From: a virus
Length of the DNA stretch: 30,350 nt
Reading direction: 5' to 3' (one strand)
Virus record (IMG/VR): IMGVR_UViG_3300036466_000177
Location: 1-30,350 of that record
Below, in pieces: positions 107 to 30,276 of this stretch (positions within the stretch are counted from its first letter, which is position 1; the number at the start of each line of letters is the position of its first letter). The notes beneath the pieces were generated by a model. The model worked only from the letters and a program-made list of their open reading frames with translations. It did not search any database and was not told the origin of the DNA. Position numbers and translations under genes: made by a program.

Positions 107-1720
107 TTAGTCCCACAAGTATTTGTATCCTTTACATAAAATCCCGCAACCTATATCCCCGTCGCTTCCTCGTGTTCTGATTTTTGAATCAGAGTCAACT
201 TTTAATTCGACCTCTATACTCTCCTGCTGCGGCCCGTAAGTATGGGTTTTCATCCTTAGCGTGTATGCCGTGTCTGATGCTGCCGTGTCGGTCTGTCTCG
301 TCTCTGTTAAAAGACCAAATCTGTTTGAATCGGCGGCACCCGGTATGTCCATCGTTACGTTAAGACTTGCAACAGTGTCAGGAGGCGACACAATCATGGT
401 CTCAACGGCAGAGGTTGACAGGTCAACACTTAAGGCTCGGCAAAGCTGAATCGTGTCCCATACAACCATCCCGCATTCGTCTGCATGAAAGTTGACAATG
501 TTCCCGGCCCCGTCATTAAGCACCCACCCTATCTGCCTGTATAGCGAATATGAAGACGCATCGGAAAGCAGGTTTGTTGCAGAGGCATCAGAATCGAAGC
601 CAGCATCTATCAAAGACAAGTCAGAGGATGAAATAATAAATACCCGGTACCATTCTGGGGCGGTGCGCGTAAATACCGCTGTCCCGTCCGTTACCGTCGC
701 CGATGCTGCTGCGTATCCTGACGGCTGCGAAGAAGCGGAAGTTCCAGCGGTGGTGCATTCCCACCACCAAGGTGAAGAAGTTACTTTAATCAAATCGCCA
801 AGGCTGTAAGCCGTTGAATTTGCCCTGTCGGCTACGCTCGTCTCTAGCGTCAAACCTGACGGGAACCCGCCAGCGTCCGTTCCTTCGGACCATGCTGCGT
901 CAATCTGTTTTGTCAAGCCGGTCGCTAAAGTTATAATCGCCTGGTTTGTGCTGTCACGGCATGCGCCCGCAGATATGTCTATATCGTGGGATGCGTCGGT
1001 CCCGTTCGCAATATTTAATCCATAGTGTGATGCGCCAAGCATTACGCTTGCTGCGTTTAGGCTTGCAGGAGTTACAGCTGCGGCAGTGTCTTCCCCTGCT
1101 TGTGTATCCGCGTCGGTAGCGAACCTCATCACCCCTTTAAGGACGCTTGTCGCATCGGCGTCGATCTTTTCCAAAGTCACTGCGCCTTTGGCAAGTTTCT
1201 CCGTTACAATTGAGCCGTTTTCAACTATGGTATATTGTGGCGTTTCGTTTGTCACAGCATCCCCGGTTTCGTTCCACCCGAGGACTTTCCCCGCCTCGGG
1301 ATGCGGCAGGTCGGTATTCGCTCCGGAAGTATCGGAATCGGGGAGCTTAAACGACACGCCGACTTGTCGGGACAGTTGTTGTATCTGCATAACGATCCGG
1401 TCAAGCTCTTGCTCAAGAGTGTCCGGCCTAAAACCGTCTCCTTGTATCAAGTCAAGCCGTTGCGTGTAATCAACGTCCCGCACGACAATCAATTTCCCGT
1501 CGCTGTATGTTGCAACCGTAGTAAGCTCACCGCCACTTTCACTGCCCGCTCCCGTTAGGGTATAATCGGTTGTGAGCGTCAGAGGACCTGAAATGTCACC
1601 GGCTGCATCTTCACGATAGACCGTCAAATCTGAGTCTTGGAGGAAATAAAAAGGGATGGTATAAACCGTCCCCCCTGTGCAAACGAAAATTTGCTTGCTT
1701 GTCTCGTTGGATAGTGCCAT
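107..1720 (-). CDS. Tail fibre protein with T7-type N-terminus
   Basis: A 537-residue protein that should form the receptor-binding fibre on the tail. Residues 1-120 resemble the T7 tail-fibre N-terminal domain, which anchors the fibre to the tail tube: they begin with a cell-adhesion-like strand-rich part and end with the helical motif MQIQQLSRQVGVS (about 111-123). Residues 196-221 match the short repeat found in phage fibres (GVMRFAT...AVTPASL). The remaining 300 residues, the likely receptor-binding part, I do not recognise; they contain Trp- and Ser-rich strands and end in CKGYKYLWD. The ATG overlaps the stop of the upstream giant gene (TAATG), so the two are probably co-translated. I see no C-type lectin variable region and no template repeat, so there is no sign of a diversity-generating retroelement here. 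Confidence 0.85.
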   Translation of the reverse strand: MALSNETSKQIFVCTGGTVYTIPFYFLQDSDLTVYREDAAGDISGPLTLTTDYTLTGAGSESGGELTTVATYSDGKLIVVRDVDYTQRLDLIQGDGFRPDTLEQELDRIVMQIQQLSRQVGVSFKLPDSDTSGANTDLPHPEAGKVLGWNETGDAVTNETPQYTIVENGSIVTEKLAKGAVTLEKIDADATSVLKGVMRFATDADTQAGEDTAAAVTPASLNAASVMLGASHYGLNIANGTDASHDIDISAGACRDSTNQAIITLATGLTKQIDAAWSEGTDAGGFPSGLTLETSVADRANSTAYSLGDLIKVTSSPWWWECTTAGTSASSQPSGYAAASATVTDGTAVFTRTAPEWYRVFIISSSDLSLIDAGFDSDASATNLLSDASSYSLYRQIGWVLNDGAGNIVNFHADECGMVVWDTIQLCRALSVDLSTSAVETMIVSPPDTVASLNVTMDIPGAADSNRFGLLTETRQTDTAASDTAYTLRMKTHTYGPQQESIEVELKVDSDSKIRTRGSDGDIGCGILCKGYKYLWD

Positions 1721-4700
1721 TATTCACCCTTCCGCTTTGGGAATATGAGATTGACGGCTGTTCCATCGCCGCTTTCAACCTGGTCATAGCCTTTTTTAAG
1801 CCGCTTATATACCTGCGATACTGGGACGCCAGTGGCGTAGCTCCCAATTTCAGAAAGGCCGAAAATAACCTTTCCGGCATCTTCGGAGCTGAACTCGCCA
1901 GCAAACATATTAGCCGCCGCGTCAACCGAATCCTCGCCAAGTCTTGACACAATGTTCACAAATTCAAGCGCCGGGGTCGATACCGCGTCACCGTATCCGT
2001 CCCCGAGCGAATACCCAACAACGTCACGTACAACCGGGAACCCCTGCACGTTGTGACCAACAATTTCCTTGGCGATTTCTTCAGGTTCGGGTGGCTCCCC
2101 TGTGCGCAAGTAAGCAAGCAGCACCAGCGGGGCGACAGGCTGTGCCACACACACCAAAAACATTTTCGTCATAAACTCGTGTAGAGGCATCTTCCCAGCG
2201 CGAAAGGCCGCGACATATGCCCTCTGTACGTTCCCGAAGTTACCAGCAAAGCCGAAAAACGGCGTAATCAGACGGCCAATACCAGCTAGCCCCTCTGTGG
2301 ATCGCTGCATGTGGGACAGTTCGAGTTCATTACCGGCAGGCTGCAACGTCCTGATTTTCAGGTCTGCGGCAGATATGGCCTGTTCAATGTCGCCGCCGTT
2401 TCTCGCCATTTCGCCCTTGAACGTTCCAAGCCATGATGGTAGAAAAACCATCGAATCTGCCGCTATGATTCCGAAGTACCCGGCCGAAACCAGATCTTCG
2501 TGCGAATAGCCTAAAATCTCCTTTTCCGGCGCAAACTTATACATCTTGCGCTTAAAGTCTTTGTCATACTGCGTATATCTAGAACGCATGTATGCCGACA
2601 ATTTAAGCACAGCATCATATGAGTCTTTTGGGTTCTTGAAAAACGCCAAATAGCCGATAGCTAAGTCAACCTTATTGACCTCGGCCAAGGCCATGAAAAA
2701 CCCGCCGAAGTTTTTTACCGCCGTGACCACGTTCCAAGCCATGTAAAACGCCGAACTTTTTTTCATGGCGCTGTCAAGGGTTCGGTCCCACCTAGAACCG
2801 CCAGATTTTTCAGGCCTAATGATATGCTTTAACGATGGCCTGATTAAGCGGTAAAGCTCGTTCCCTAAAACCCTTGACGCTTCGTTCCGGTAGGTCTTGT
2901 GTTGAGTTACCCTGTCAACGTCCCGCACAGCTTGTGCCAGATAGATAAACCGCAACACGTCTTCAAGGTGTTCACTTAAAACCGACATTGACAGCTTGAC
3001 CGGAAGCCCTGCCCCATTTGCGGTACGCTGTTTGGAGAACCCGCTTTTGGCCGATGGCGTCTGAAACACAGCCTCTTGTCGAGAAAGCATGTCGCTTTTT
3101 TCGTCCCATAATCCCGCCATGAAAGACAAACTGCCGTCATACCGGATCGGGAAATAGCCACCAGGGTGTTCTATCTCTGTCCCGTCATTCGCTCTGACCA
3201 TGATCGGTCGAGCGTGAACTTTTTTCATGCGGGAGTGTTTTATTTTCAAGTGAACGCTGTCTGCCTGCGGAAATAGAGAATCGACAGAATCTAATATCCC
3301 CCTTATCGCGGCCCAATCATCCACGGACAAAATGCTCGTCAACTCGACAATCTGATCTTCCGACATGGGCACACCATCGATGGTGAACCCAGACGATACC
3401 CTTTGCATGTTGTCTGCGGTGCCAATGTTCAGCGCCATCATGACAACATTTTCAAACGTCCATTGCCGGTTGTCGGCTTTGTAACAGTCGGGAACCGGAA
3501 CGGATGTCTTTATCTCGTTGCCGTTCTTTTTCCAAGACGTTATCAGTTGCGTCAGGTGAGGCTGAATTTTCTTCCCCATATCCTCTTTTGCCACGTACAA
3601 GGCATCAAGAGCTTTCGCAAGCCGCCCCCATAGCTCCCTGACGTTCACCCCATCTTTGCTTTTTTTGGAAACCCCATCCCATCCGTCCATTTGCCGAAAT
3701 ATCCACAAGGGCAGCTTTGTAGAAGCAAAATACGATTCTTTAACGTCTTGGATTTTCCGAGACAAGGAACCGTATCGGGATATTTTTTTCCCTTTCATCT
3801 TTGCCGTTTCGACAACCGCTTTCTCGGCAAGGGATGCAATCGATGTTTTCTCGTCGGACAGCAAGCCTTTTTTTATTTCCCGTCCGCGCCCGACAAGGAA
3901 TTTCAACAGGTCGTCCAGTTCTTGAATTTCGCCCCAGGTCATTTCCGATGTGGCGCGGTCGTCTGTTTTCAGGTTTTCCGATATAAACGGGGCCCCAATC
4001 GAGGTTATTTCATCGACGTTTGCATTTAAATCGTCAATGAACTTCGACAGCGAAGGGGTGTCTTCATTTACGTCCAGCCTCCGCGAAACCATTTGATTTC
4101 TAAGCATAAGCTGGTTGATCTGCTGCCGGTATTCATAGGCAACGTCCGATTTCACGGCCCGTTTCCATCTGGTTTGCATCTTGCGGTAAGCTTCGTTGGC
4201 GCGGTAGTGCGCGGCAATGAGCGCCTCGTTCATTCTGGCTTTTTCGTTTAAGTCGAAAGCCTTTGTCCAGTCTCCCGCTTTGACCGCCTTGATAACCTGT
4301 TGGCGGAGTTTCCGCGACGTGGTGAGAATCTTACTGATCCTTATGGCGTCTCCGACCTTTTGCGCGTCGGTGGTCTGGTCGGCCCAAATGCGTAGAGCCT
4401 TGCGCGCCAAAGCCGCCCTTCCCGCCGCTTCCTTACGCGCCAGCCACTTGCTTTCAAGCTCCATCTGCTTGCGTGATTGCGCGGTGCGTATGGCTTCTTC
4501 CGTGGTCAATTCCTGATCGTGTTCGATTTCCAACTGTGCCACTCGCTGTTCAATCCACTGCTGCCGCGTTTTTGCCTTGGTCATCGCGTCCACGAATTCA
4601 CGCGCCGATTCATACCCGGCTTCAATGGCCGCATGTTCGATATCGAGCCCGTCTTTTTTAAATAGCCCTTTGACACTTGGCAAGTTTATCTTGCCGAACA

Positions 4701-7700
4701 GCCGCACTACGCTGGCCTTGTCGATGCCTCCTTTCTCTACCAGCATATCCATAGCCTTGTAAACAGGCTCTTGCTTTATTTCTTCCTTGGCTTGTGCGCG
4801 GTATGCCTTGAGTCGTTCATCCAACTTGCCTACGCGCTGTTTGTCTTTCTTTTCTGTAGCCTCTGCGTTTTCGGACGCGCTGCGGTATTCTTTGATTTCC
4901 GCGTTGGTCGCTCCCGCCTCTTTTAAAAACTTCTCGTCGAGGATAGCGATCTGAGCCGCAAGTTCTCGCGCTTGTTGAATCTCCTCTTCTGTGGCAACCA
5001 GCCGGTCAAACACCCTTCGCAGGTCGTCGTTTATTTCTACCTGCAAGGCGTCGGCGGTGCGGTAAATCTTCACCAGCCACGACTTGAACTGACGGAACGC
5101 GGCACGCAATCCGGCAACGGGGGCTTCCCCTTCGCGCAAGTATGCCTCAAAGCCTCGCGCAAATTGTTCATGCTGTTCGCGTGTCAGTTCGCCGTCAGAG
5201 CCAAGCCATTCCTTGATAGCGTTCCATTCGTCAACCTGCACGCCGTATTTGCCCGCGACGTATTTTAGATCGTTCAGGAACAGATGTCCCATTTCATGCA
5301 GGAAGGTGGACAGGTTTGCGCTCTCGAAAAGCGTGATAAGCGTTTTCCCGTCGCCGGTAAGTATTGCACCACGGGGGGCGGTGTCGGTGCGGAAGAACGT
5401 ACCTTGTCCTCCACCCTGATAAAGATGGTCTTCTCCAACCTTCTCGGCGACGGAGTTATCAAAAAGCATAGCCCCGTTGCTGGTCTTTATCCCAACTATC
5501 TCGTTCGGCTCTATGACGTTTTCATAAATCCATTCATCAAATTGGCCGCGATTCCAGTCCCACATATCGGCACTGTCAACAATATCGGCAGGGTCCAGTG
5601 CCGCGACAAAATCATCAACGCTTAACTCTTCGACGGAAGCCGGGAGCCTGCCTTTCTCTTCATCCGCAAGATAAGCATCGCGTGCGAGTTCTTGGAACTC
5701 CGCAACCGGCATCAGCCTACTTATGGGTACGCGCCACGCAGTATCGCCAAAATGCGAGATAGCGTCCTGGTCATCGGCCCACTGCGACCATTCATCTTCG
5801 TTCAGGGTTTCGCCCTTGAATCGGTAGACATATTCTTTTTTGCTTTGCTGAAACTGCACCTGCCCCAACTGGTGAAGCTCGGCAAACTCGTCAAAATTCT
5901 GCCGCTGAATGGTGATGCCGAATCGTTTTAGATGTTCCGCCGCTTCAATTCCGGTCAGCTTCGCCAAGACGTTGGCGCGGGCGATGATCGGCATAATGCT
6001 GTACGAGGCGTTGTCACCCTTCACCCCTGCGTCTTCTAGCTGGGCCTTAAGGTCGGCTTCAATTTGATCTACCATGTCAGGAGAAATTAGACGCCGTTGC
6101 TCTTCATCGTACAGCTCTTTAATCCGGACGTTCGCGGCACTTTCGGCTTGCACATCGGCCTCGGCTGCGTTAACCGTGGTTTCCTCTGCGCTGATACTCA
6201 GATCGTTCTGGAATAACGTCATGGCTTGGTCGGTACCGACGCCCGCAACAACCTTCCCGAAGTCCATTTCTACTGCGCCACCGGTTTGTAACGCCGTGAT
6301 AAGCTCGGTTCGGCTTACACCATACTGCTCCGCCCATGTCGTTACTTCCTGCTGAGTCATGCCCTGTTCATCGACCAGCGTTTCAATGATGCGGTCTGAT
6401 TGAAGATATATCTTCTCCACGCCGTTTTTCCGCCCAACGCGGCTCATGAATTCGGCAAACGCTTCTGGCGACCGCTCCTTCAACCGCGACGCCTCGGCGG
6501 ATGAGGCAACATCAACCATCTTGTTTTTCCGAACCTCCGCTTCCGTCTTGGCTTTGTGAGCGGCTTGGATGTCTCCGGCAAGGGTAACGCCACCTCCAGC
6601 CATGCCGAGCACCGCCATGCCTTTCCCGACCTTTGCGGCCACCTGTTGCAACTGCTCCATAGTCGCGGGGTCTTTGATCGTCTGCACAATGCCCTGGTCC
6701 TGCAACACCCCGCTGACGACAATGTTAGTCAATTCCTGCGCCATTTCGGTCGTAACTTCGCCGGTCCACGCCATTGCGTAGTTTTTGGCGAAATCGAAAA
6801 ACGCTTTGCGAATTGTCGGGTTGGAAAGCACCAAGCCCTTAACGCCGTTCGACATAACTTTTCGCAACCCAGGAATGACTTTCGCCAGAGCCGAAAAGCC
6901 GACCGTTTCTAGGGTGGCGTTGGCGACACCGACAAGCTCGGCGGCTACGGCGGCTGTTTTGTCGTCTATCTGGTTGCCTTCGCCGTCCTGCAAGGTGCGA
7001 AACTCGCGGAACGCCTGCCCCGCTTCCACGTCGTGCGCATGCTCGAAATACCCAACGCGGAGACCTATCCCAGCACCAGCCAAGGCCCCGGCAGGGGCGG
7101 TAATCGGTGCGGCAATCTCTCCGGTAGGTGCTGCGGCCACAGCTCCGGCACCGGCACCTGTTATAGCACCGGTCAAGCCGCGTTCCATAACTTTAGGCGA
7201 CTTCATCGACTCGAACATTTGGCCGACAAGCTCAGACGCTGCCGGGATGAATGATGACAGGCCCGTATCTGTGGTCTCATAATTGCTGGCCGCGTCGAGC
7301 TTGGCGAGGTATTCAAGCTGATCGGGAGGTAAGTCTTTGCCCTGCAATATGAGCCGCCGCCGTTGTTCCCACAGCACCCCGCCCCGGTCCATTGCTTGTC
7401 CGGAAATGAATTCGCGGTATGTGTCGGTGCCCTTGACGAAACCAGGAACGAGAGACGAAGAAAGCCCCTCAATGTTCTTCACGGCCTCCGCGTTTACAGC
7501 TTCCTGCTGCTGCTTTTTCAAAGCGGATGTCTTTTCCTCAATGGTGGCGAGGTTCTCAAGATCGTCCTGTGCCAGCGACATGAACCATGCATCTCTCGTC
7601 TGCCCTACAAGCACGGGGGCGCGGTCCCGCAACTTGTCGAAATCAGGCATATTTGCCGCCCTGCGAGCAACGTCAAGGTTGTCCTTGACAGCTTTTTGAG

Positions 7701-7860
7701 ACACCCCTAGCTTAGATGATAAATTGTAAAGCTCTGCCGCCTCATCGGGGCTACGGTCGGCCTGCTTATACGCCTGTTGCGGGGTTGGCGGCTTTTCGAC
7801 CGTTTCCCAATTTTCGTGCTTCTTCTCGGACCATGTGCCGTCTGCGCGCAAAATTTCCAT
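1720..7860 (-). CDS. Giant virion/ejection protein, polyvalent type, with HExxH motif
   Basis: A 2046-residue protein in the position of T7 gp16, the internal virion protein that is ejected into the host and helps DNA cross the envelope; T7 gp16 is about 1300 residues, so this one is much longer. Residues 228-271 are a Gly/Ala-rich hydrophobic stretch that could enter a membrane. HEMGH at 855-859, followed by FARGFEAYL near 900-908, fits a zinc metallopeptidase (HExxH with a downstream Glu) as seen in phage polyvalent proteins. Residues 1000-1350 are highly charged and helical. The last 400 residues, with a mixed hydrophobic part (FGFAGNFGNVQRAY and a membrane-like segment after it), resemble the large polyvalent-protein-associated domain LPD38; that assignment is from memory of the family. 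I saw no lytic transglycosylase motif. The gene starts divergently from a plus-strand gene, so its transcripts must cross that gene or begin in the short gap. Confidence 0.8.
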   Translation of the reverse strand: MEILRADGTWSEKKHENWETVEKPPTPQQAYKQADRSPDEAAELYNLSSKLGVSQKAVKDNLDVARRAANMPDFDKLRDRAPVLVGQTRDAWFMSLAQDDLENLATIEEKTSALKKQQQEAVNAEAVKNIEGLSSSLVPGFVKGTDTYREFISGQAMDRGGVLWEQRRRLILQGKDLPPDQLEYLAKLDAASNYETTDTGLSSFIPAASELVGQMFESMKSPKVMERGLTGAITGAGAGAVAAAPTGEIAAPITAPAGALAGAGIGLRVGYFEHAHDVEAGQAFREFRTLQDGEGNQIDDKTAAVAAELVGVANATLETVGFSALAKVIPGLRKVMSNGVKGLVLSNPTIRKAFFDFAKNYAMAWTGEVTTEMAQELTNIVVSGVLQDQGIVQTIKDPATMEQLQQVAAKVGKGMAVLGMAGGGVTLAGDIQAAHKAKTEAEVRKNKMVDVASSAEASRLKERSPEAFAEFMSRVGRKNGVEKIYLQSDRIIETLVDEQGMTQQEVTTWAEQYGVSRTELITALQTGGAVEMDFGKVVAGVGTDQAMTLFQNDLSISAEETTVNAAEADVQAESAANVRIKELYDEEQRRLISPDMVDQIEADLKAQLEDAGVKGDNASYSIMPIIARANVLAKLTGIEAAEHLKRFGITIQRQNFDEFAELHQLGQVQFQQSKKEYVYRFKGETLNEDEWSQWADDQDAISHFGDTAWRVPISRLMPVAEFQELARDAYLADEEKGRLPASVEELSVDDFVAALDPADIVDSADMWDWNRGQFDEWIYENVIEPNEIVGIKTSNGAMLFDNSVAEKVGEDHLYQGGGQGTFFRTDTAPRGAILTGDGKTLITLFESANLSTFLHEMGHLFLNDLKYVAGKYGVQVDEWNAIKEWLGSDGELTREQHEQFARGFEAYLREGEAPVAGLRAAFRQFKSWLVKIYRTADALQVEINDDLRRVFDRLVATEEEIQQARELAAQIAILDEKFLKEAGATNAEIKEYRSASENAEATEKKDKQRVGKLDERLKAYRAQAKEEIKQEPVYKAMDMLVEKGGIDKASVVRLFGKINLPSVKGLFKKDGLDIEHAAIEAGYESAREFVDAMTKAKTRQQWIEQRVAQLEIEHDQELTTEEAIRTAQSRKQMELESKWLARKEAAGRAALARKALRIWADQTTDAQKVGDAIRISKILTTSRKLRQQVIKAVKAGDWTKAFDLNEKARMNEALIAAHYRANEAYRKMQTRWKRAVKSDVAYEYRQQINQLMLRNQMVSRRLDVNEDTPSLSKFIDDLNANVDEITSIGAPFISENLKTDDRATSEMTWGEIQELDDLLKFLVGRGREIKKGLLSDEKTSIASLAEKAVVETAKMKGKKISRYGSLSRKIQDVKESYFASTKLPLWIFRQMDGWDGVSKKSKDGVNVRELWGRLAKALDALYVAKEDMGKKIQPHLTQLITSWKKNGNEIKTSVPVPDCYKADNRQWTFENVVMMALNIGTADNMQRVSSGFTIDGVPMSEDQIVELTSILSVDDWAAIRGILDSVDSLFPQADSVHLKIKHSRMKKVHARPIMVRANDGTEIEHPGGYFPIRYDGSLSFMAGLWDEKSDMLSRQEAVFQTPSAKSGFSKQRTANGAGLPVKLSMSVLSEHLEDVLRFIYLAQAVRDVDRVTQHKTYRNEASRVLGNELYRLIRPSLKHIIRPEKSGGSRWDRTLDSAMKKSSAFYMAWNVVTAVKNFGGFFMALAEVNKVDLAIGYLAFFKNPKDSYDAVLKLSAYMRSRYTQYDKDFKRKMYKFAPEKEILGYSHEDLVSAGYFGIIAADSMVFLPSWLGTFKGEMARNGGDIEQAISAADLKIRTLQPAGNELELSHMQRSTEGLAGIGRLITPFFGFAGNFGNVQRAYVAAFRAGKMPLHEFMTKMFLVCVAQPVAPLVLLAYLRTGEPPEPEEIAKEIVGHNVQGFPVVRDVVGYSLGDGYGDAVSTPALEFVNIVSRLGEDSVDAAANMFAGEFSSEDAGKVIFGLSEIGSYATGVPVSQVYKRLKKGYDQVESGDGTAVNLIFPKRKGE

Positions 7861-22032: not shown

Positions 22033-22136
22033 AGGACACACGCCATAATAACGCCGGAGGTTAGCCCAAACCCGCAGGCGGCAGATAAGGCCGCGACATG
22101 GGCCAAGGTGACGGCTATTTCGTAAACTATTTTCAT
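22023..22136 (-). CDS. Tiny single-helix membrane protein
   Basis: A 37-residue protein (MKIVYEIAVTLAHVAALSAA...) that is almost entirely hydrophobic: one membrane helix or a helical hairpin from 4 to 36. It begins in the stop codon of the DUF3310 gene (ATGA) and overlaps the next gene, so its translation is coupled to both. Small phage membrane proteins of this size include inhibitors of host processes and holin-like proteins, but nothing in the sequence selects one of these. Confidence 0.5.
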   Translation of the reverse strand: MKIVYEIAVTLAHVAALSAACGFGLTSGVIMACVLWG

Positions 22137-22477
22137 TCGCCCAGCCTCTCGATTTCAAAGTCGATATATCGCCGCGCCTTTTTCAAATCTTCCAGCGCAT
22201 CGCCTTTTTTACCGGCTCTCAACACATACTTGACCACGTTGCCCAAACAGAAATTAAGCTCTCGCGTCACCTGGATAACCTCGATAGGCTCCCCGCATTT
22301 GCATTTAACTCCAGTGACCGTGTAGTGCGGAGGGTGATTAACCATGTCGGCCAACTCGCCTTGCTTGTCGTGCGTCACTGTTGGCTGTCTTGATACGCAA
22401 CCCTCATTACTGCACTGCAAAAAATTCCCGCTCCTCTCCAGTTCACTGCCGCAATAGCCACAACAAACAGCATCCAT
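22133..22477 (-). CDS. DUF3310 protein with N-terminal zinc ribbon
   Basis: A 114-residue protein. Residues 46-112 are a clear DUF3310 domain: VNHPPHYT at the start, IEVIQV in the middle, then GNVVKYVLRAGKKGD and DLKKARRYIDFEIERL. T7 gp1.7, a nucleotide kinase, carries the same domain, so a role in nucleotide metabolism is possible. Residues 5-27 hold four Cys residues (C6, C9, C22, C27), a small zinc ribbon put in front. I chose the ATG at 22477 because GGAGG is 7 bases before it and it overlaps the upstream stop (TGATG). Confidence 0.82.
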   Translation of the reverse strand: MDAVCCGYCGSELERSGNFLQCSNEGCVSRQPTVTHDKQGELADMVNHPPHYTVTGVKCKCGEPIEVIQVTRELNFCLGNVVKYVLRAGKKGDALEDLKKARRYIDFEIERLGE

Positions 22478-22635
22478 CACTCCACCTCCCCGTAAATATC
22501 CCCGACCCTGCAATCCTCAACCGGCAATTCGTCCAGTGCCACAAGACACGCTTGCGGACAATACCGGAGGCGTTTACAGGCGCGGCAGCATACGCCGTCT
22601 TTTCGTTTAGGTTCGCAGCGGCAGGGTGTTTTCAT
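22477..22635 (-). CDS. Small Cys-rich protein
   Basis: A 52-residue basic protein with seven Cys residues (CRC at 5-7, CCRAC at 16-20, C26, C30 and C42), probably one or two zinc sites. It overlaps both neighbours: its ATG lies in the upstream stop (ATGA) and its own stop in the next ATG (TGATG). Function unknown. Confidence 0.55.
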   Translation of the reverse strand: MKTPCRCEPKRKDGVCCRACKRLRYCPQACLVALDELPVEDCRVGDIYGEVE

Positions 22636-22820
22636 TGTTCCTCTGGCCGCTTGTGCCCGTATGTATGCGGATCAGCAAAAAACACCTGGCTCTTAGGCCT
22701 CCCGTTGTACTGCCAGTTAAGGAAAAATCTGCATCTATTTTGCTCATCACTGCTAGACAGATACTCAATAGAGGTCTCAACCTCACGCCCTTCGGACATG
22801 TTTACGTGTTTTGCTATCAT
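22632..22820 (-). CDS. Unknown 62-residue protein
   Basis: A soluble protein (MIAKHVNMSEGREVETSIEY...) with an aromatic-rich second half (FFLNWQYNGRPKSQVFFADP). I start it at 22820, where GAGG precedes the ATG by 5 bases; a TTG seven codons earlier is less likely. It is the first gene after the terminator of the large RNA, yet no promoter was evident in the 45 bases between, so it may depend on readthrough. Not recognised. Confidence 0.55.
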   Translation of the reverse strand: MIAKHVNMSEGREVETSIEYLSSSDEQNRCRFFLNWQYNGRPKSQVFFADPHTYGHKRPEEQ

Positions 22821-22865
22821 CGAATCCTCACAACTTTGCAATCCTTGTTACCGCATCGCCTCCAT

Positions 22866-22902
22866 AAAAAGTGCCGCTACTACTTTGGAGAGTAGCAGCG
22901 GC
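22866..22902 (-). terminator. Rho-independent terminator of the large RNA
   Basis: On the minus strand GCCGCTGCTAC and GTAGTAGCGGC form an 11-bp stem with one G-U pair and an 8-base loop, followed after two bases by TTTTT (22870-22866). Read on the plus strand the same hairpin has an A-C mismatch and no T-run, so it belongs to the minus strand. Confidence 0.85.
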
Positions 22903-23395
22903 TACAGGAGGAGAGGTGCCAGATTTGTGTCATCTCCTCTGGCTTGGAGGATTGCCCATACTAACGCCCTATGGGCAGACGCCGCACGGCTAACACGGGT
23001 TGTCGCCGTTATATGCCCGTAGGCAGGCCAGGCTAAGGGCGCTACGGGGAGTCCCGTAACGGCCTTGTAACTCCGCCTCCGCATGGAAGGTGAGCTAAAT
23101 AATTCTGGGTTAGTAGCTAACCTAACGAACAGAGCCAGCGTGTCCGAGGCTTCAGGATGCCCTAGCAGTGCACTTTGCCAGATTCGTGTCCCACCCTACT
23201 GCGCCCATCTTCACTATCTTTGCCGCGCCGCAGGGCTAACGGCACAAATGTAAAGTCCGCTGGTTTGCCGGTCCGCGAATCTGTGCGGGGGTTTTATGCA
23301 GCGGGCGGTTTTACGACAAAAGGGCCACTCACTGAGTAGCCCCCTGTGTCAAATCGACCTGTTACGGTCTATGTCTCACGCGACACCATGCCGCG
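22866..23395 (-). ncRNA. Candidate large structured phage RNA (about 530 nt)
   Basis: This stretch has no credible gene on either strand but many base-paired elements, and it ends in a strong minus-strand terminator. Helices seen on the minus strand: a 9-bp hairpin (23322-23342); CCGCTG with CAGCGG (23299-23304 with 23257-23262); CAGATTCG with CGAATCTG, an 8-bp long-range pair (23276-23283 with 23179-23186); hairpins at 23108-23122, 23041-23060, 22953-22977; a UACG tetraloop hairpin (23014-23025); and a possible pseudoknot, GCCAGA with TCTGGC (22938-22943 with 22918-22923), whose loop GGAG can pair with CTCC near 22907. Size, ornate folding and phage context resemble the GOLLD and ROOL classes of giant phage RNAs, but I cannot assign a class by eye. 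The 5' end is uncertain and may lie near 23345. Confidence 0.65.
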
Positions 23396-23635
23396 TTAAA
23401 ACCTGTCCTCTGTCGCTATGCTGTCGGCTATGGAGTGATACGGCGCGAGGTCGTCGGCGTCGTCGGCCTCCAGGTGAGTGTCAAACTCGCCACGGATATG
23501 CGACCAGTTCGCCATGTCGCCGGAACACAGCCGGAACAGCCGCCGTTTCAAAATCTTGAGCCTGTCGCGCTCGTCTGGGTCGGTCGTCCATGCAATCCGC
23601 TGTATCTCGGCTTTGAGTCCCGACACATCGCGCAT
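23396..23635 (-). CDS. Unknown small helical protein before the large RNA
   Basis: A 79-residue charged protein (MRDVSGLKAEIQRIAWTTDP...), probably three or four helices. I start it at 23635, with GGGGG 6 bases before the ATG; an ATG ten codons earlier lies inside the upstream terminator hairpin and is less likely. Its stop is directly followed by the large-RNA region, so it could share a transcript with it. No family recognised. Confidence 0.5.
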   Translation of the reverse strand: MRDVSGLKAEIQRIAWTTDPDERDRLKILKRRLFRLCSGDMANWSHIRGEFDTHLEADDADDLAPYHSIADSIATEDRF

Positions 23636-23649
23636 AACGCCCCCGAAAT

Positions 23650-23678
23650 AAAAAAGGGGCAGCATCTCTGCAACCCCT
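23650..23678 (-). terminator. Rho-independent terminator with GAGA tetraloop
   Basis: On the minus strand AGGGGT-TGCA and TGC-TGCCCCT pair with one U-U mismatch around a GAGA (GNRA-type) tetraloop (23655-23678), followed by TTTTT (23654-23650). It closes the operon that ends with the gene at 23773 and separates it from the small gene and large RNA that follow. Confidence 0.78.
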
Positions 23679-23700
23679 AAAACTCCACCGTTCCATATAA

Positions 23701-23727
23701 GCTAGCATCGCTAAAAAAAAATTGCAA
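23701..23727 (-). promoter_or_regulatory. Weak minus-strand promoter candidate in an AT-rich gap
   Basis: TTGCAA (23727-23722), a 17-base spacer with nine T, and TAGCTT preceded by TGC (an extended -10). It would start transcripts only about 25 bases before the terminator at 23678, so a start here would mainly make a short terminated RNA unless there is readthrough. The surrounding 23679-23772 is otherwise AT-rich with no gene. Confidence 0.25.
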
Positions 23728-23772
23728 GAACTTTTTGCATAATTTTTCAGTATGTCCGATTTTTGATTTTTC

Positions 23773-24120
23773 TCAAAAAATTTTTCCTTGCTCAGTCGTC
23801 CCGTACACCATGTCGGAAATTTTCAACCCGTCATATTCCAGCCGCCGCCGCTCCACCGTCTTCCAGAACGTCCGGTGCGCTTTCCGCAACTCCTGCGGTA
23901 CGGGGTTGTAATCCTGGGTGCCGAAGTAGATACTCTTGATCGCCGGAGCGTCCCCGCAGGATAAAAAATCAATCGCCCACTCAAGGAAGTTGCGCCCTCC
24001 ACCCCTTCCGCCTGTCTGCACCCGTTCCGATATCTGGACCGCGTCCGGTGATGTTTCCGCTTCGTGTATCAATATCCATGCCGTTCTGAATACCCTTCGT
24101 TTCTGCGGCCAAGTTAACAT
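23773..24120 (-). CDS. Unknown 115-residue early protein
   Basis: A soluble basic protein (MLTWPQKRRVFRTAWILIHE...). It has a helical start, a Gly-rich turn (TGGRGGGRNFLEWAIDFLSC, about 35-54) and a C-terminus rich in Tyr, Arg and Trp. I start at 24120, with AAAGGGG before the ATG; the longer frame upstream overlaps the preceding gene. Not recognised. Confidence 0.55.
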   Translation of the reverse strand: MLTWPQKRRVFRTAWILIHEAETSPDAVQISERVQTGGRGGGRNFLEWAIDFLSCGDAPAIKSIYFGTQDYNPVPQELRKAHRTFWKTVERRRLEYDGLKISDMVYGTTEQGKIF

Positions 24121-24329: not shown

Positions 24330-24654
24330 TCCTAGCCTCCTTACCGTCATGCTCGATGCACAGCAGGAGTTTATCCAGGCTGTCCACATAAAGACGGTCC
24401 TCGCCTAAAATAGCGGCCATCGGAGATGATCCCATGCCACACTCCCAGCAATACCAATCGAGCCAATGGCTATCATCGTTGACCAGTTTCGCGAGGCTGT
24501 CTGTGTACAGCTCAAACATATGCCAAATGGGGCCCCACAACGGGCTATCGCATTTTGATTCTGTGAGTTGGCAAAATGAATCATAGTTTTTTTGCAACGC
24601 CCTGTACGCCGCCTCCCATCGTTTTAGTTGTACTATTTTTTGTTCAGTTGTCAT
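24316..24654 (-). CDS. Unknown early protein following the helicase
   Basis: A 112-residue helical protein rich in Trp (about eight) with CWEC at 69-72. It resembles phage accessory proteins of unknown function that come after DnaB-type helicases, but I cannot name the family. The ATG overlaps the helicase stop (ATGA), so it is co-translated with the helicase and may help it. Confidence 0.6.
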   Translation of the reverse strand: MTTEQKIVQLKRWEAAYRALQKNYDSFCQLTESKCDSPLWGPIWHMFELYTDSLAKLVNDDSHWLDWYCWECGMGSSPMAAILGEDRLYVDSLDKLLLCIEHDGKEARNGRA

Positions 24655-25934
24655 CTCGCCTCCCTGAATGTCGTATGTTCCCCGATATATTCACAATTCA
24701 CAGTCCCGACCGGGCCACCTCTGTGCTTGCCGATAATAATCTGCGCCTTGCGTCTGTGGTTTTTCTCGCACTCTGCAACGCCCTTGCAATCACAATAAAT
24801 GGCCTCCCGATAGCAAAACATAATCACGTCGGCGTCCTGCTCTAATGCCCCCGACTCTCTCAGATCAGCCATTTTCGGGCGTTTGTCGTCGCGGTTTTCC
24901 AAACCCCTGTTAAGCTGGCAAAGGGCGATGACAGGCGCTTCGATTTCCTTGCTCAACAGCTTTAATTGACGGCTTGCGTCCGTAACAATGTCATACCGCG
25001 TCCCGGTCCCGTCGATCAGTTGCAGGTAGTCTACGATAACGGCCCCTATCCCATGCTTGCGTTTTATCTGCTTGGCGCGTGAGCGGATTTCTGAGGCCGT
25101 CAATACCGGCGTATCGTCTATCCACAGTTGACTTTTGTGCAATCTGTCTGCCGCATCGTTGAGCTTTGAAAAGTCGGCACCTTCAAGCATCCCAAACCGC
25201 ATTTTCCCGTTGTCAATTTTACCCTCGGAGGATAAGGCGCGTTCGCCTAATTCCGCTTCGTCCATTTCCATGCTAAACAGCAACGCAGGCTTGCCGCTCT
25301 TCCCAACGTGCCGCGCTATATCCATTGCCAAGGCCGTCTTCCCCATCCCTGGACGCCCGGCAACAATGTAAAACTTGCTAGGCTGGATTCCACCAAGCAT
25401 TCGGTCAAGCGGTGTTAAGCCCGTCGGCGCTCCTGGTATTTGCCCCTTATGTTCCCTTCGCGCCTCAAGCACATTCAGAGCTTTTAAAAGGGCCTCGCTT
25501 ATTTTTTTCGGGCCCCCTTCGGATTTTCCGCGAATGCCGTCTATCGTCGCTTCGATCTTTTCCAGAATTTCGGCAACTGGCATCTTATCCGCGTTTTGCT
25601 GTATAGCTTCGGCAATACCGCGAATCTTTCGACGCTGGCTTTTCTCCCGAACCTGCTTGACGTAATAGCCGACATTGACGGCGGTCGGGGAAAACTCCAT
25701 AAGCTCGTTTAGATACGTGACACCGCCGACCTCTTGTAGTTTTTTTATACGCACAAGTTCGTTTGTAAGGGCGACAAGCTCCGGCTTAATCCCTTGGCAA
25801 TGGAGGTCAAGCATAACGCGGTAAATCTCGCGGTGTGCTCCGGTAAAATCGTCGGCGGCTAGATTGATACGGTCAAGAGCTTCGTCGGGATCAAGGCAGA
25901 TCGCGCCGAGTATGGCTTTTTCGTTATCCAGCAT
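24651..25934 (-). CDS. dnaB: DnaB-type replicative helicase
   Basis: A 427-residue hexameric DNA helicase that unwinds DNA ahead of the fork. It has the helical N-terminal domain (1-100), a linker (about 101-165) and the RecA-like motor: Walker A GRPGMGKT (193-200), SMEMDEAELGER (221-232), Walker B AVIVDYLQLI (298-307), the 'ALCQLNRGLENR' sensor (337-348) and 'LRESGALEQDADVI' (358-371). Between 374 and 390 there is an unusual Cys-rich loop (CYREAIYCDCKGVAEC). I start at 25934, with GGGAGG 3 bases before the ATG; it overlaps the initiator gene by 11 bases. Standard length for phage DnaB is 430-470. Confidence 0.92.
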   Translation of the reverse strand: MLDNEKAILGAICLDPDEALDRINLAADDFTGAHREIYRVMLDLHCQGIKPELVALTNELVRIKKLQEVGGVTYLNELMEFSPTAVNVGYYVKQVREKSQRRKIRGIAEAIQQNADKMPVAEILEKIEATIDGIRGKSEGGPKKISEALLKALNVLEARREHKGQIPGAPTGLTPLDRMLGGIQPSKFYIVAGRPGMGKTALAMDIARHVGKSGKPALLFSMEMDEAELGERALSSEGKIDNGKMRFGMLEGADFSKLNDAADRLHKSQLWIDDTPVLTASEIRSRAKQIKRKHGIGAVIVDYLQLIDGTGTRYDIVTDASRQLKLLSKEIEAPVIALCQLNRGLENRDDKRPKMADLRESGALEQDADVIMFCYREAIYCDCKGVAECEKNHRRKAQIIIGKHRGGPVGTVNCEYIGEHTTFREAR

Positions 25935-26853
25935 TGGCCTCCCTTTCCCTTGCAAGCCTTTCTAGCTCAATGACGTGCGGCGGCTTATATCCGTCAAGCT
26001 GGCTTTTAGGGGTTTCGTAGATACCTCCGCTTGGCGGTTTCTTACCGTGGCTTATCTCTTTGCCGCTTAACAGGGCTTCCAGTTTTTCGACGATGTTGCG
26101 CTGCCGGTATTTCTGAATGTCGCCGCCGTGATAGTTGTAAACCGCGATGATATCTTTGACGGTCTTGCCTTTAGCCAGCAAATCACGAAACAAACCAAGG
26201 GGGGGCATGGAGTTAAGGCCGCAAGTGGTAAGGTGCAAGTTTTTCAAATCGGCAATGCTCCCCCCACTATTAGGTGTAGGTATAGGAGTAGGAGAAGGCA
26301 TAGGAGTAGGAGTAGGAGTAGGAGTAGGAGTAGGAGTAGGAGTAGGAGTAGGAGTAGGGCCGGGGCTTGTAGCATCACTTAAGCCCCCCTTAAGTAGTGC
26401 TTGAGTAGCCCTTAACTTGTCCTTTGAGGATGTTATAAGCCCGTACTCCTCTTTACTTATCCCAACCCTTCCCGCTTCTGTCAAAAGTTCGTAAACGTCT
26501 TTGTTCGTACTCTTCATCCTGTTAAGACGCCCCTTGTCGGCCCTGTCTTCTGATGATGCAACCCAGGAGTTTGTTTCTGCCCAATCATGAAGACACGCTT
26601 TCTCGCCAGTCATGTCAATGAAATGAAGTTCACAAATTGAGTCAAAAAACTTACCCTCTTCTCCTTGCCACTTCGCTGCGATTTCTATGTCTTCCTTGTC
26701 AAGGCCGGTAAGTTCGCCGGATGGCCTATTTTGTGCGGCCCATTCCCACAGGCGAAGCAACGAGACAACACCTTCAAGGCCGCAGCGTCTTTGCAATTTT
26801 ATTGTTTTAGGATGATCGAAAAAACCAATTGCAATACGGATGTCGCTATTCAT
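25924..26853 (-). CDS. Replication initiator / helicase-loader-like protein with Thr-Pro linker
   Basis: A 309-residue protein. Residues 1-100 (IGFFDHPKTIKLQRRCGLEG, then LLRLWEWAAQNRPSGELTG) are the winged-helix type N-terminus found in phage replisome organisers and DnaD-like proteins. Residues 165-194 are an extended Pro-Thr repeat encoded by a perfect hexamer tract. Residues 200-309 form a second helical domain, likely for DNA or helicase binding. Its place directly before dnaB with an 11-base overlap supports a role in origin recognition and helicase loading. I start at 26853 (AAGGAGG about 10 bases before), since the longer frame upstream runs through an RNA terminator. Confidence 0.78.
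   Translation of the reverse strand: MNSDIRIAIGFFDHPKTIKLQRRCGLEGVVSLLRLWEWAAQNRPSGELTGLDKEDIEIAAKWQGEEGKFFDSICELHFIDMTGEKACLHDWAETNSWVASSEDRADKGRLNRMKSTNKDVYELLTEAGRVGISKEEYGLITSSKDKLRATQALLKGGLSDATSPGPTPTPTPTPTPTPTPTPTPMPSPTPIPTPNSGGSIADLKNLHLTTCGLNSMPPLGLFRDLLAKGKTVKDIIAVYNYHGGDIQKYRQRNIVEKLEALLSGKEISHGKKPPSGGIYETPKSQLDGYKPPHVIELERLAREREANAG
26301..26357 (-). repeat. Hexamer tandem repeat (TAGGAG)n within the initiator gene
   Basis: About 9.5 perfect copies of TAGGAG on the plus strand, with degenerate copies out to 26272. Read in the gene it encodes alternating Pro and Thr. The unit length of six keeps the frame, so slippage would change linker length without breaking the gene. Confidence 0.95.
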
Positions 26854-26879
26854 TCCTGCTATGCCTCCTTGAACCCTGT

Positions 26880-27050
26880 TCAGAGTTTGTTTACGATGGT
26901 CGCAAGCTTCACGCTTACCGGCCAAGGAAGATGGTTTAAAATGCACACGAATAATCTTATAAAAAAGCCCCGCCACATTTGGCCTTTGTCGCAACTGTCG
27001 AGGAAGCAACTCAGGTTAACCAAACATGACGGGGCTATCGTGACCGGCAA
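26880..27050 (-). CDS. Possible leader peptide in the structured leader
   Basis: A 56-residue frame starting with TTG (27050), with GGAGG 5 bases before it. It runs through the pairing segments and the terminator of the leader RNA and stops just before the initiator gene. If translated, ribosomes would melt the terminator, which would be a means of control. The protein itself (MPVTIAPSCLVNLSCFLDSC...) looks like no known family. The TTG start and its location make this a weak call. Confidence 0.25.
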   Translation of the reverse strand: MPVTIAPSCLVNLSCFLDSCDKGQMWRGFFIRLFVCILNHLPWPVSVKLATIVNKL

Positions 27051-30193: not shown

Positions 30194-30240
30194 GTTTACC
30201 TCCGCTCGCAGGTGAGCTATTCGTTATCCACCCGCACCGT

Positions 30241-30265
30241 AAAACCCCGTCACTTCAGGGCGGGG
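30241..30265 (-). terminator. Terminator-like hairpin near the right edge
   Basis: CCCCG and CGGGG enclose an 11-base loop, followed by TTTT on the minus strand. It stands before the first early gene of the window. The text of the hairpin resembles the end hairpins of IS200/IS605-type elements, but no transposase or TnpB gene is next to it here. Confidence 0.45.
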
Positions 30266-30276
30266 ATATAAGGTGC

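Follow-up and report, generated by a model that had tools for sequence, protein, structure and literature searches.

What does a phage carry in 530 nt of DNA that has no evident gene and yet folds elaborately on one strand? The question is raised by positions 22866–23395 of a 30,350-base viral record (IMG/VR IMGVR_UViG_3300036466_000177, positions 1 to 30,350), which is referred to here as the window. A preliminary description of the region saw in it a candidate for a large non-coding RNA, similar in size to the giant phage RNAs GOLLD and ROOL and perhaps a divergent member of these families or a new class.

The region, its folding and its relatives

The genes around the region all lie on the minus strand and include small genes of no assigned function. 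A 79-codon gene (23396–23635) is found immediately upstream and another small gene (22632–22820) downstream, with a DUF3310 gene (22133–22513) and a DnaB-type helicase gene (24651–25955) as further neighbours. Judged on this gene content, the earlier label of an early region is a fair description. Ahead of the 79-codon gene, and on the same strand, alignment with two relatives (L002 and L003) and blast to all relatives delineate a promoter-like block, TTGCAA ... TTTTTTTTAGCGATGCTAGCTTATA (about 23696–23727), in which some 24 bases are nearly invariant and which constitutes a putative promoter. A first terminator-like hairpin with a T run (23650–23677, minus strand) is located between this block and the gene. 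A tRNA search of the window found none. Elsewhere, the minus strand has one uninterrupted frame of 2046 codons (1720–7860), which probably encodes a large virion-associated protein, and a Pro-Thr repeat run (about 26250–26380) inside a replication-initiation-like gene (25924–27009).

Compared with dinucleotide shuffles, the minus strand of the region has a predicted folding energy of −220.5 kcal/mol against −191.2 ± 6.6 kcal/mol (z −4.43; 0 of 100 shuffles as good), and the plus strand lies close to the chance level (z −1.65). The ornate minus-strand fold of the preliminary description is borne out by this value and by the many hairpins, but its quality is uneven: the excess is borne by the 3′ half (22866–23105; z −4.40), and the variable 5′ half (23106–23395) is weaker (z −2.10). 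An element working at the level of DNA, for instance an origin of replication or a recombination site with hairpins forming in single-stranded DNA, would suit a locus that is near replication genes, lies beside an AT-rich stretch (23710–23800) and is a place of DNA exchange between phages. Such an element is nevertheless improbable, given that the fold excess is confined to one strand, that stem pairs other than Watson-Crick ones are G-U when the minus strand is read, and that the last stem is followed by a U run.

The small neighbouring genes, the terminase and DNA patterns served as queries in scans for relatives, and the same locus was found in five further record types (L002/L006, L003/L054, L007/L012, L011 with L013, and L016/L055; L011 and L013 are identical across the compared stretch). 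Only the 3′ part, the last 75–240 bases, is common to the window and the five related phages. The intervals at this place in the relatives span about 220–700 nt of mostly unrelated sequence, and what stands for the 5′ part is small ORFs in one relative, a tRNA-Thr in another and hardly anything in a third. The 79-codon gene is present in L002, where about 220 nt separate it from the terminator end, and in L003, where the locus extends to about 700 nt and includes two additional small ORFs; it is divergent in L016 and absent from L013 and from L007, which has about 250 nt at the locus. L011 and L013 carry a tRNA-Thr in the same intergenic interval. Homology to the 5′ half of the window is limited to a 33-nt identical island (23213–23245) shared with L003 and a further 20 nt or so. 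Because the contents of the locus differ and the 5′ half of the window is its own, no single RNA is conserved across the 530 nt, and the 5′ spacer is best read as tolerant of varied contents, with small genes or a tRNA lodged there in these phages.

Several further features were observed in these records. The tRNA-Thr (TGT; L013 5793–5868, also in L011) appears, as read by eye, to have its first bases overlapped by an upstream ORF. A 43-nt hairpin segment, 81% alike among its copies, occurs in the window at 30224–30266 (plus strand), in L007 at 6334–6376 and in L013 at 5497–5539, and abuts the conserved part of the locus in the latter two; it has no match in Rfam, no tnpB gene was seen next to it, and we take it to resemble the right end, or the omega-RNA 3′ hairpin, of IS200/IS605-type TnpB elements. 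Within the region itself there are two imperfect 15-nt direct repeats, GTTAGCC(C/G)TGCGGCG (23226–23240 and 22980–22994, 246 nt apart) and GACAC(A/G)AATCTGGCA (23176–23190 and 22917–22931, 259 nt apart), which occur in the same order; such a pair arose in 0 of 500 shuffles. Integron attC sites, considered on account of repeated GTTAG motifs, were rejected by eye, as paired R boxes are lacking.

Outside this close group, a covariance-model search of 38 viral and 60 genome loci, chosen as relatives by their terminase, found no credible homologue, and neither a nucleotide search of phage and plasmid records nor an exact-pattern scan of genome contigs gave a match. The terminase relatives in cellular genomes belong mostly to Desulfovibrio and related bacteria, which hints at the host group of these phages.

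The conserved core and its hairpins

Five hairpins on the minus strand were followed through the relatives. H1 (23068–23097; 6 + 5 pairs) is conserved, is not covarying and is absent from L002. H2 (23035–23066; 4 + 9 pairs) does not keep its upper half in L016, where about 70 extra nt separate it from H3. H2 likewise lacks covariation, and H1–H2 as a covarying unit was rejected on that ground. H3 (23014–23025) has the stable UACG loop noticed earlier, which reads UCCG in L003 and L007 and hence is still of the UNCG type. H4 (22986–23009) consists of nine pairs with one bulged base and is nearly invariant, and H5 (22953–22977) combines a covarying stem with the conserved loop core GCGU(A/U)A. 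H5 is followed by some 35 nt that are specific to the window (22918–22952), which include a GAGGAGA able to pair with a CU-rich tract further on.

H3, H4 and H5 form a 75-nt core (23027–22953) that aligns without gaps in five phages. The structure is paired in 95.2% of the cells of this alignment, with a covariation score of 0.190 against 0.081 for shuffles (0 of 500 as high), and the pairing is destroyed when the partner is slid by one to three columns. All double changes are held by H5, where four pairs are altered on both sides with the loop kept (one as A-U, C-G and U-A, the others as C-G/U-A, G-C/A-U and G-C/A-U/G-U); these are counts and not probabilities, taken from six closely related sequences with three or four stem types. 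H3 and H4 say little for or against structure because they are kept but nearly invariant. L013 has neither H4 nor the usual H5 stem, and presents at the matching place a hairpin with a GCGUAA loop on a different stem. Judged from these few sequences, the covariation in H5 appears real though modest. The pseudoknot suggested beside the 3′ end fared less well, as its best candidate (ACGGG, 23020–23016, with CCCGU, 22999–22995) is disrupted in three of the five sequences and does not covary. The comparison of relatives for compensatory changes thus speaks for H5 and not for H1, H2 or the pseudoknot, and the earlier argument for selected structure stands for the 3′ part, where the terminator stem is also re-made, and not for the whole 530 nt.

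The adjacent pair H1–H2, one base apart in an early transcript that meets terminators, recalls the put RNA of phage HK022, an early transcript with two stem-loops in about 70 nt (PMC9378689). In an antitermination RNA of this type, the nascent hairpins would act on RNA polymerase and allow it to pass terminators. H1–H2 has the outline of put, but its absence from L002 and its failure to covary make this function quite improbable.

As regards conservation, the preliminary description was right to see no credible gene in the region. One ATG frame of 60 codons (22902–23084) runs without a stop in the window, but each difference that it shows between phages alters an amino acid. None of the core frames compared between phages has a clear third-position or synonymous bias; neighbouring genes do show third-position bias, for example with 28/13/44 differences by codon position in a 116-codon gene. 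In one core frame, F3, silent changes are mildly in excess when L016 is compared with L003 or L007, and this frame is interrupted by stops in the window. F1 and F3 look partly protein-like in L013, L003 and L016; reading the core as a gene was nevertheless rejected, since F3 is stopped in the window and the changes in F1 are not silent. Used as queries in protein searches, the F3 peptide and the second L003 ORF found chance matches only. It is conceivable that the core descends from a coding piece.

Outside H5, the core is 90–100% identical between phages, compared with 57–77% at the DNA level for the adjacent 79-codon gene. This high identity could reflect strong constraint or recent exchange, as either fits. 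Were the locus a mosaic of pieces that recombination and gene loss left behind, its terminator functional but no other RNA function selected, the strong differences in content between phages and the lack of covariation in H1–H2 would be expected, and the silent changes in F3 could be those of a decayed gene piece. The covariation of H5 and the greater conservation of the core than of the adjacent gene render such a mosaic rather unlikely.

Searches with the covariance models of Rfam returned no family over the window at gathering score, GOLLD and ROOL among them, and no match on 22600–23700 at E values up to 10, GOLLD, ROOL and CcsR included. In L003, L006, L007 and L013, neither GOLLD nor ROOL was detected, and nothing credible was found save the tRNA of L013. 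GOLLD RNAs have a variable 5′ part and a conserved 3′ part of about 800 nt, with many members longer than 800 nt, and often lie near tRNAs; ROOL RNAs have multiple conserved pseudoknots (PMC12286853). The element under study is likewise phage-borne and non-coding, with a fixed 3′ part, a variable 5′ part and, in one relative type (L011/L013), a tRNA in the interval, an arrangement that speaks for a giant RNA (PMC12286853). In contrast to GOLLD, it has no covariance-model match, its conserved part covers 75–240 nt and not about 800, its whole interval in the relatives falls short of that size, and its pseudoknot is not kept; the resemblance is one of layout only. With ROOL it has in common that it is a phage-borne non-coding RNA with a tRNA nearby in one relative, and it differs in the lack of a model match, in conservation limited to the 3′ half and in that the one pseudoknot candidate compared is not kept. 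The first proposal, a divergent giant RNA of the GOLLD or ROOL kind, is therefore very improbable. The element looks like a small, lineage-restricted structured RNA absent from Rfam.

The terminator and the CU-rich tract

The region ends, as the preliminary description had it, in a terminator-like hairpin with a T run. This putative intrinsic terminator (22902–22866, minus strand) has a stem that we count at 12 pairs and not 11. Among the relatives, the stem shows G-U/G-C changes, and in L016 it is wholly replaced. In all six phages, a CUCC-rich, anti-Shine-Dalgarno-like tract (22906–22916 in the window, minus strand) is located a few bases ahead of the stem, and a GGAG is found immediately past the U run. 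In the window, the latter is a GGAGG (22859–22863, minus strand) that is predicted to pair with the tract.

In partition-function folding, the post-terminator GGAG has a paired probability of 0.95–1.00 in six of six phages, of which the tract supplies 0.54–1.00. The control, 43 Shine-Dalgarno-like sites from the same records with two copies of this locus among them, has a median of 0.57, and 5% of its sites reach 0.95, including the L016 site itself. When the tract was shuffled, much of the GGAG pairing persisted and in the window exceeded that with the real tract; this control separates poorly because the tract is of low complexity. The six masked loci are homologous, so they are not independent, and the predicted pairing of tract and GGAG around the terminator is suggestive only. 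In the window, the GGAGG precedes a frame of just two codons, with a separate ribosome-binding site serving the next gene. Masking is predicted in all six phages, and the two-codon frame counts against a clear target in the window.

The same tract is central to the main rival explanation, a trans-acting small RNA. H5, the tract and the terminator would be released or made alone, and the tract would repress phage or host mRNAs by pairing with their Shine-Dalgarno sequences. The order of hairpin, tract and terminator is kept in six of six phages, including L013 and L016 with their differing neighbours, and the outline resembles that of CCUCCUCCC-motif RNAs such as CcsR (Rfam RF02791), in which a CU-rich, anti-Shine-Dalgarno-like tract also lies beside a hairpin. 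The sole match to the CcsR1 model, however, is at chance level (12.1 bits in L007, with 65.3 needed) and none occurs in the window, and the 35-nt insert of the window can itself bind the tract. A small RNA of this kind is possible, though unlikely.

A putative attenuator-type element

The predicted structures suggest that the region probably makes a folded RNA ending in a terminator hairpin. We tentatively favour, at somewhat less than even probability, a compact minus-strand RNA near the end of an early operon that would serve as an attenuator-type cis-regulatory element. RNA polymerase would set out from the promoter-like block, cross the 79-codon gene and the variable spacer, and next make H3–H5, the CU-rich tract and the intrinsic terminator, where the majority of transcripts would end. 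For read-through RNA, the prediction is that the tract reaches around the terminator, pairs with the GGAG and hides the next ribosome-binding site. H3–H5, with the UNCG and GCGU(A/U)A loops, may be the part that is recognised by a protein or by the polymerase and that sets the level of read-through.

An intrinsic terminator does stand ahead of a downstream gene. As in bacterial terminator-based attenuators, it lies right before a ribosome-binding site, which would be hidden by pairing; unlike in those systems, no alternative antiterminator hairpin, leader peptide or ligand-binding domain was identified. The strand-specific fold excess of the 3′ half, the covariation of H5, the re-made terminator stem, the conservation of the core, the lack of coding bias and the predicted masking of the GGAG are consistent with attenuation and leave it a plausible, still doubtful reading. 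The small number of related sequences, the lack of covariation in H1–H2, the deviations of L013, the weak shuffled-tract control and the two-codon frame that follows the window GGAGG count against it. The element could also represent a new class of compact phage RNA, in effect GOLLD in miniature, with a fixed 3′ domain and an exchangeable 5′ or cargo part forming a structural or regulatory particle in the course of infection, but we consider this hardly probable.

The region also illustrates that the folding energy of a whole intergenic interval can overstate the size of the RNA within it. The locus adds a phage RNA element outside Rfam, situated where a tRNA and small genes are swapped among relatives. 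Should attenuation prove the right reading, a transcriptional stop and the masking of a ribosome site would be combined in one phage operon, an arrangement that is open to experimental test.
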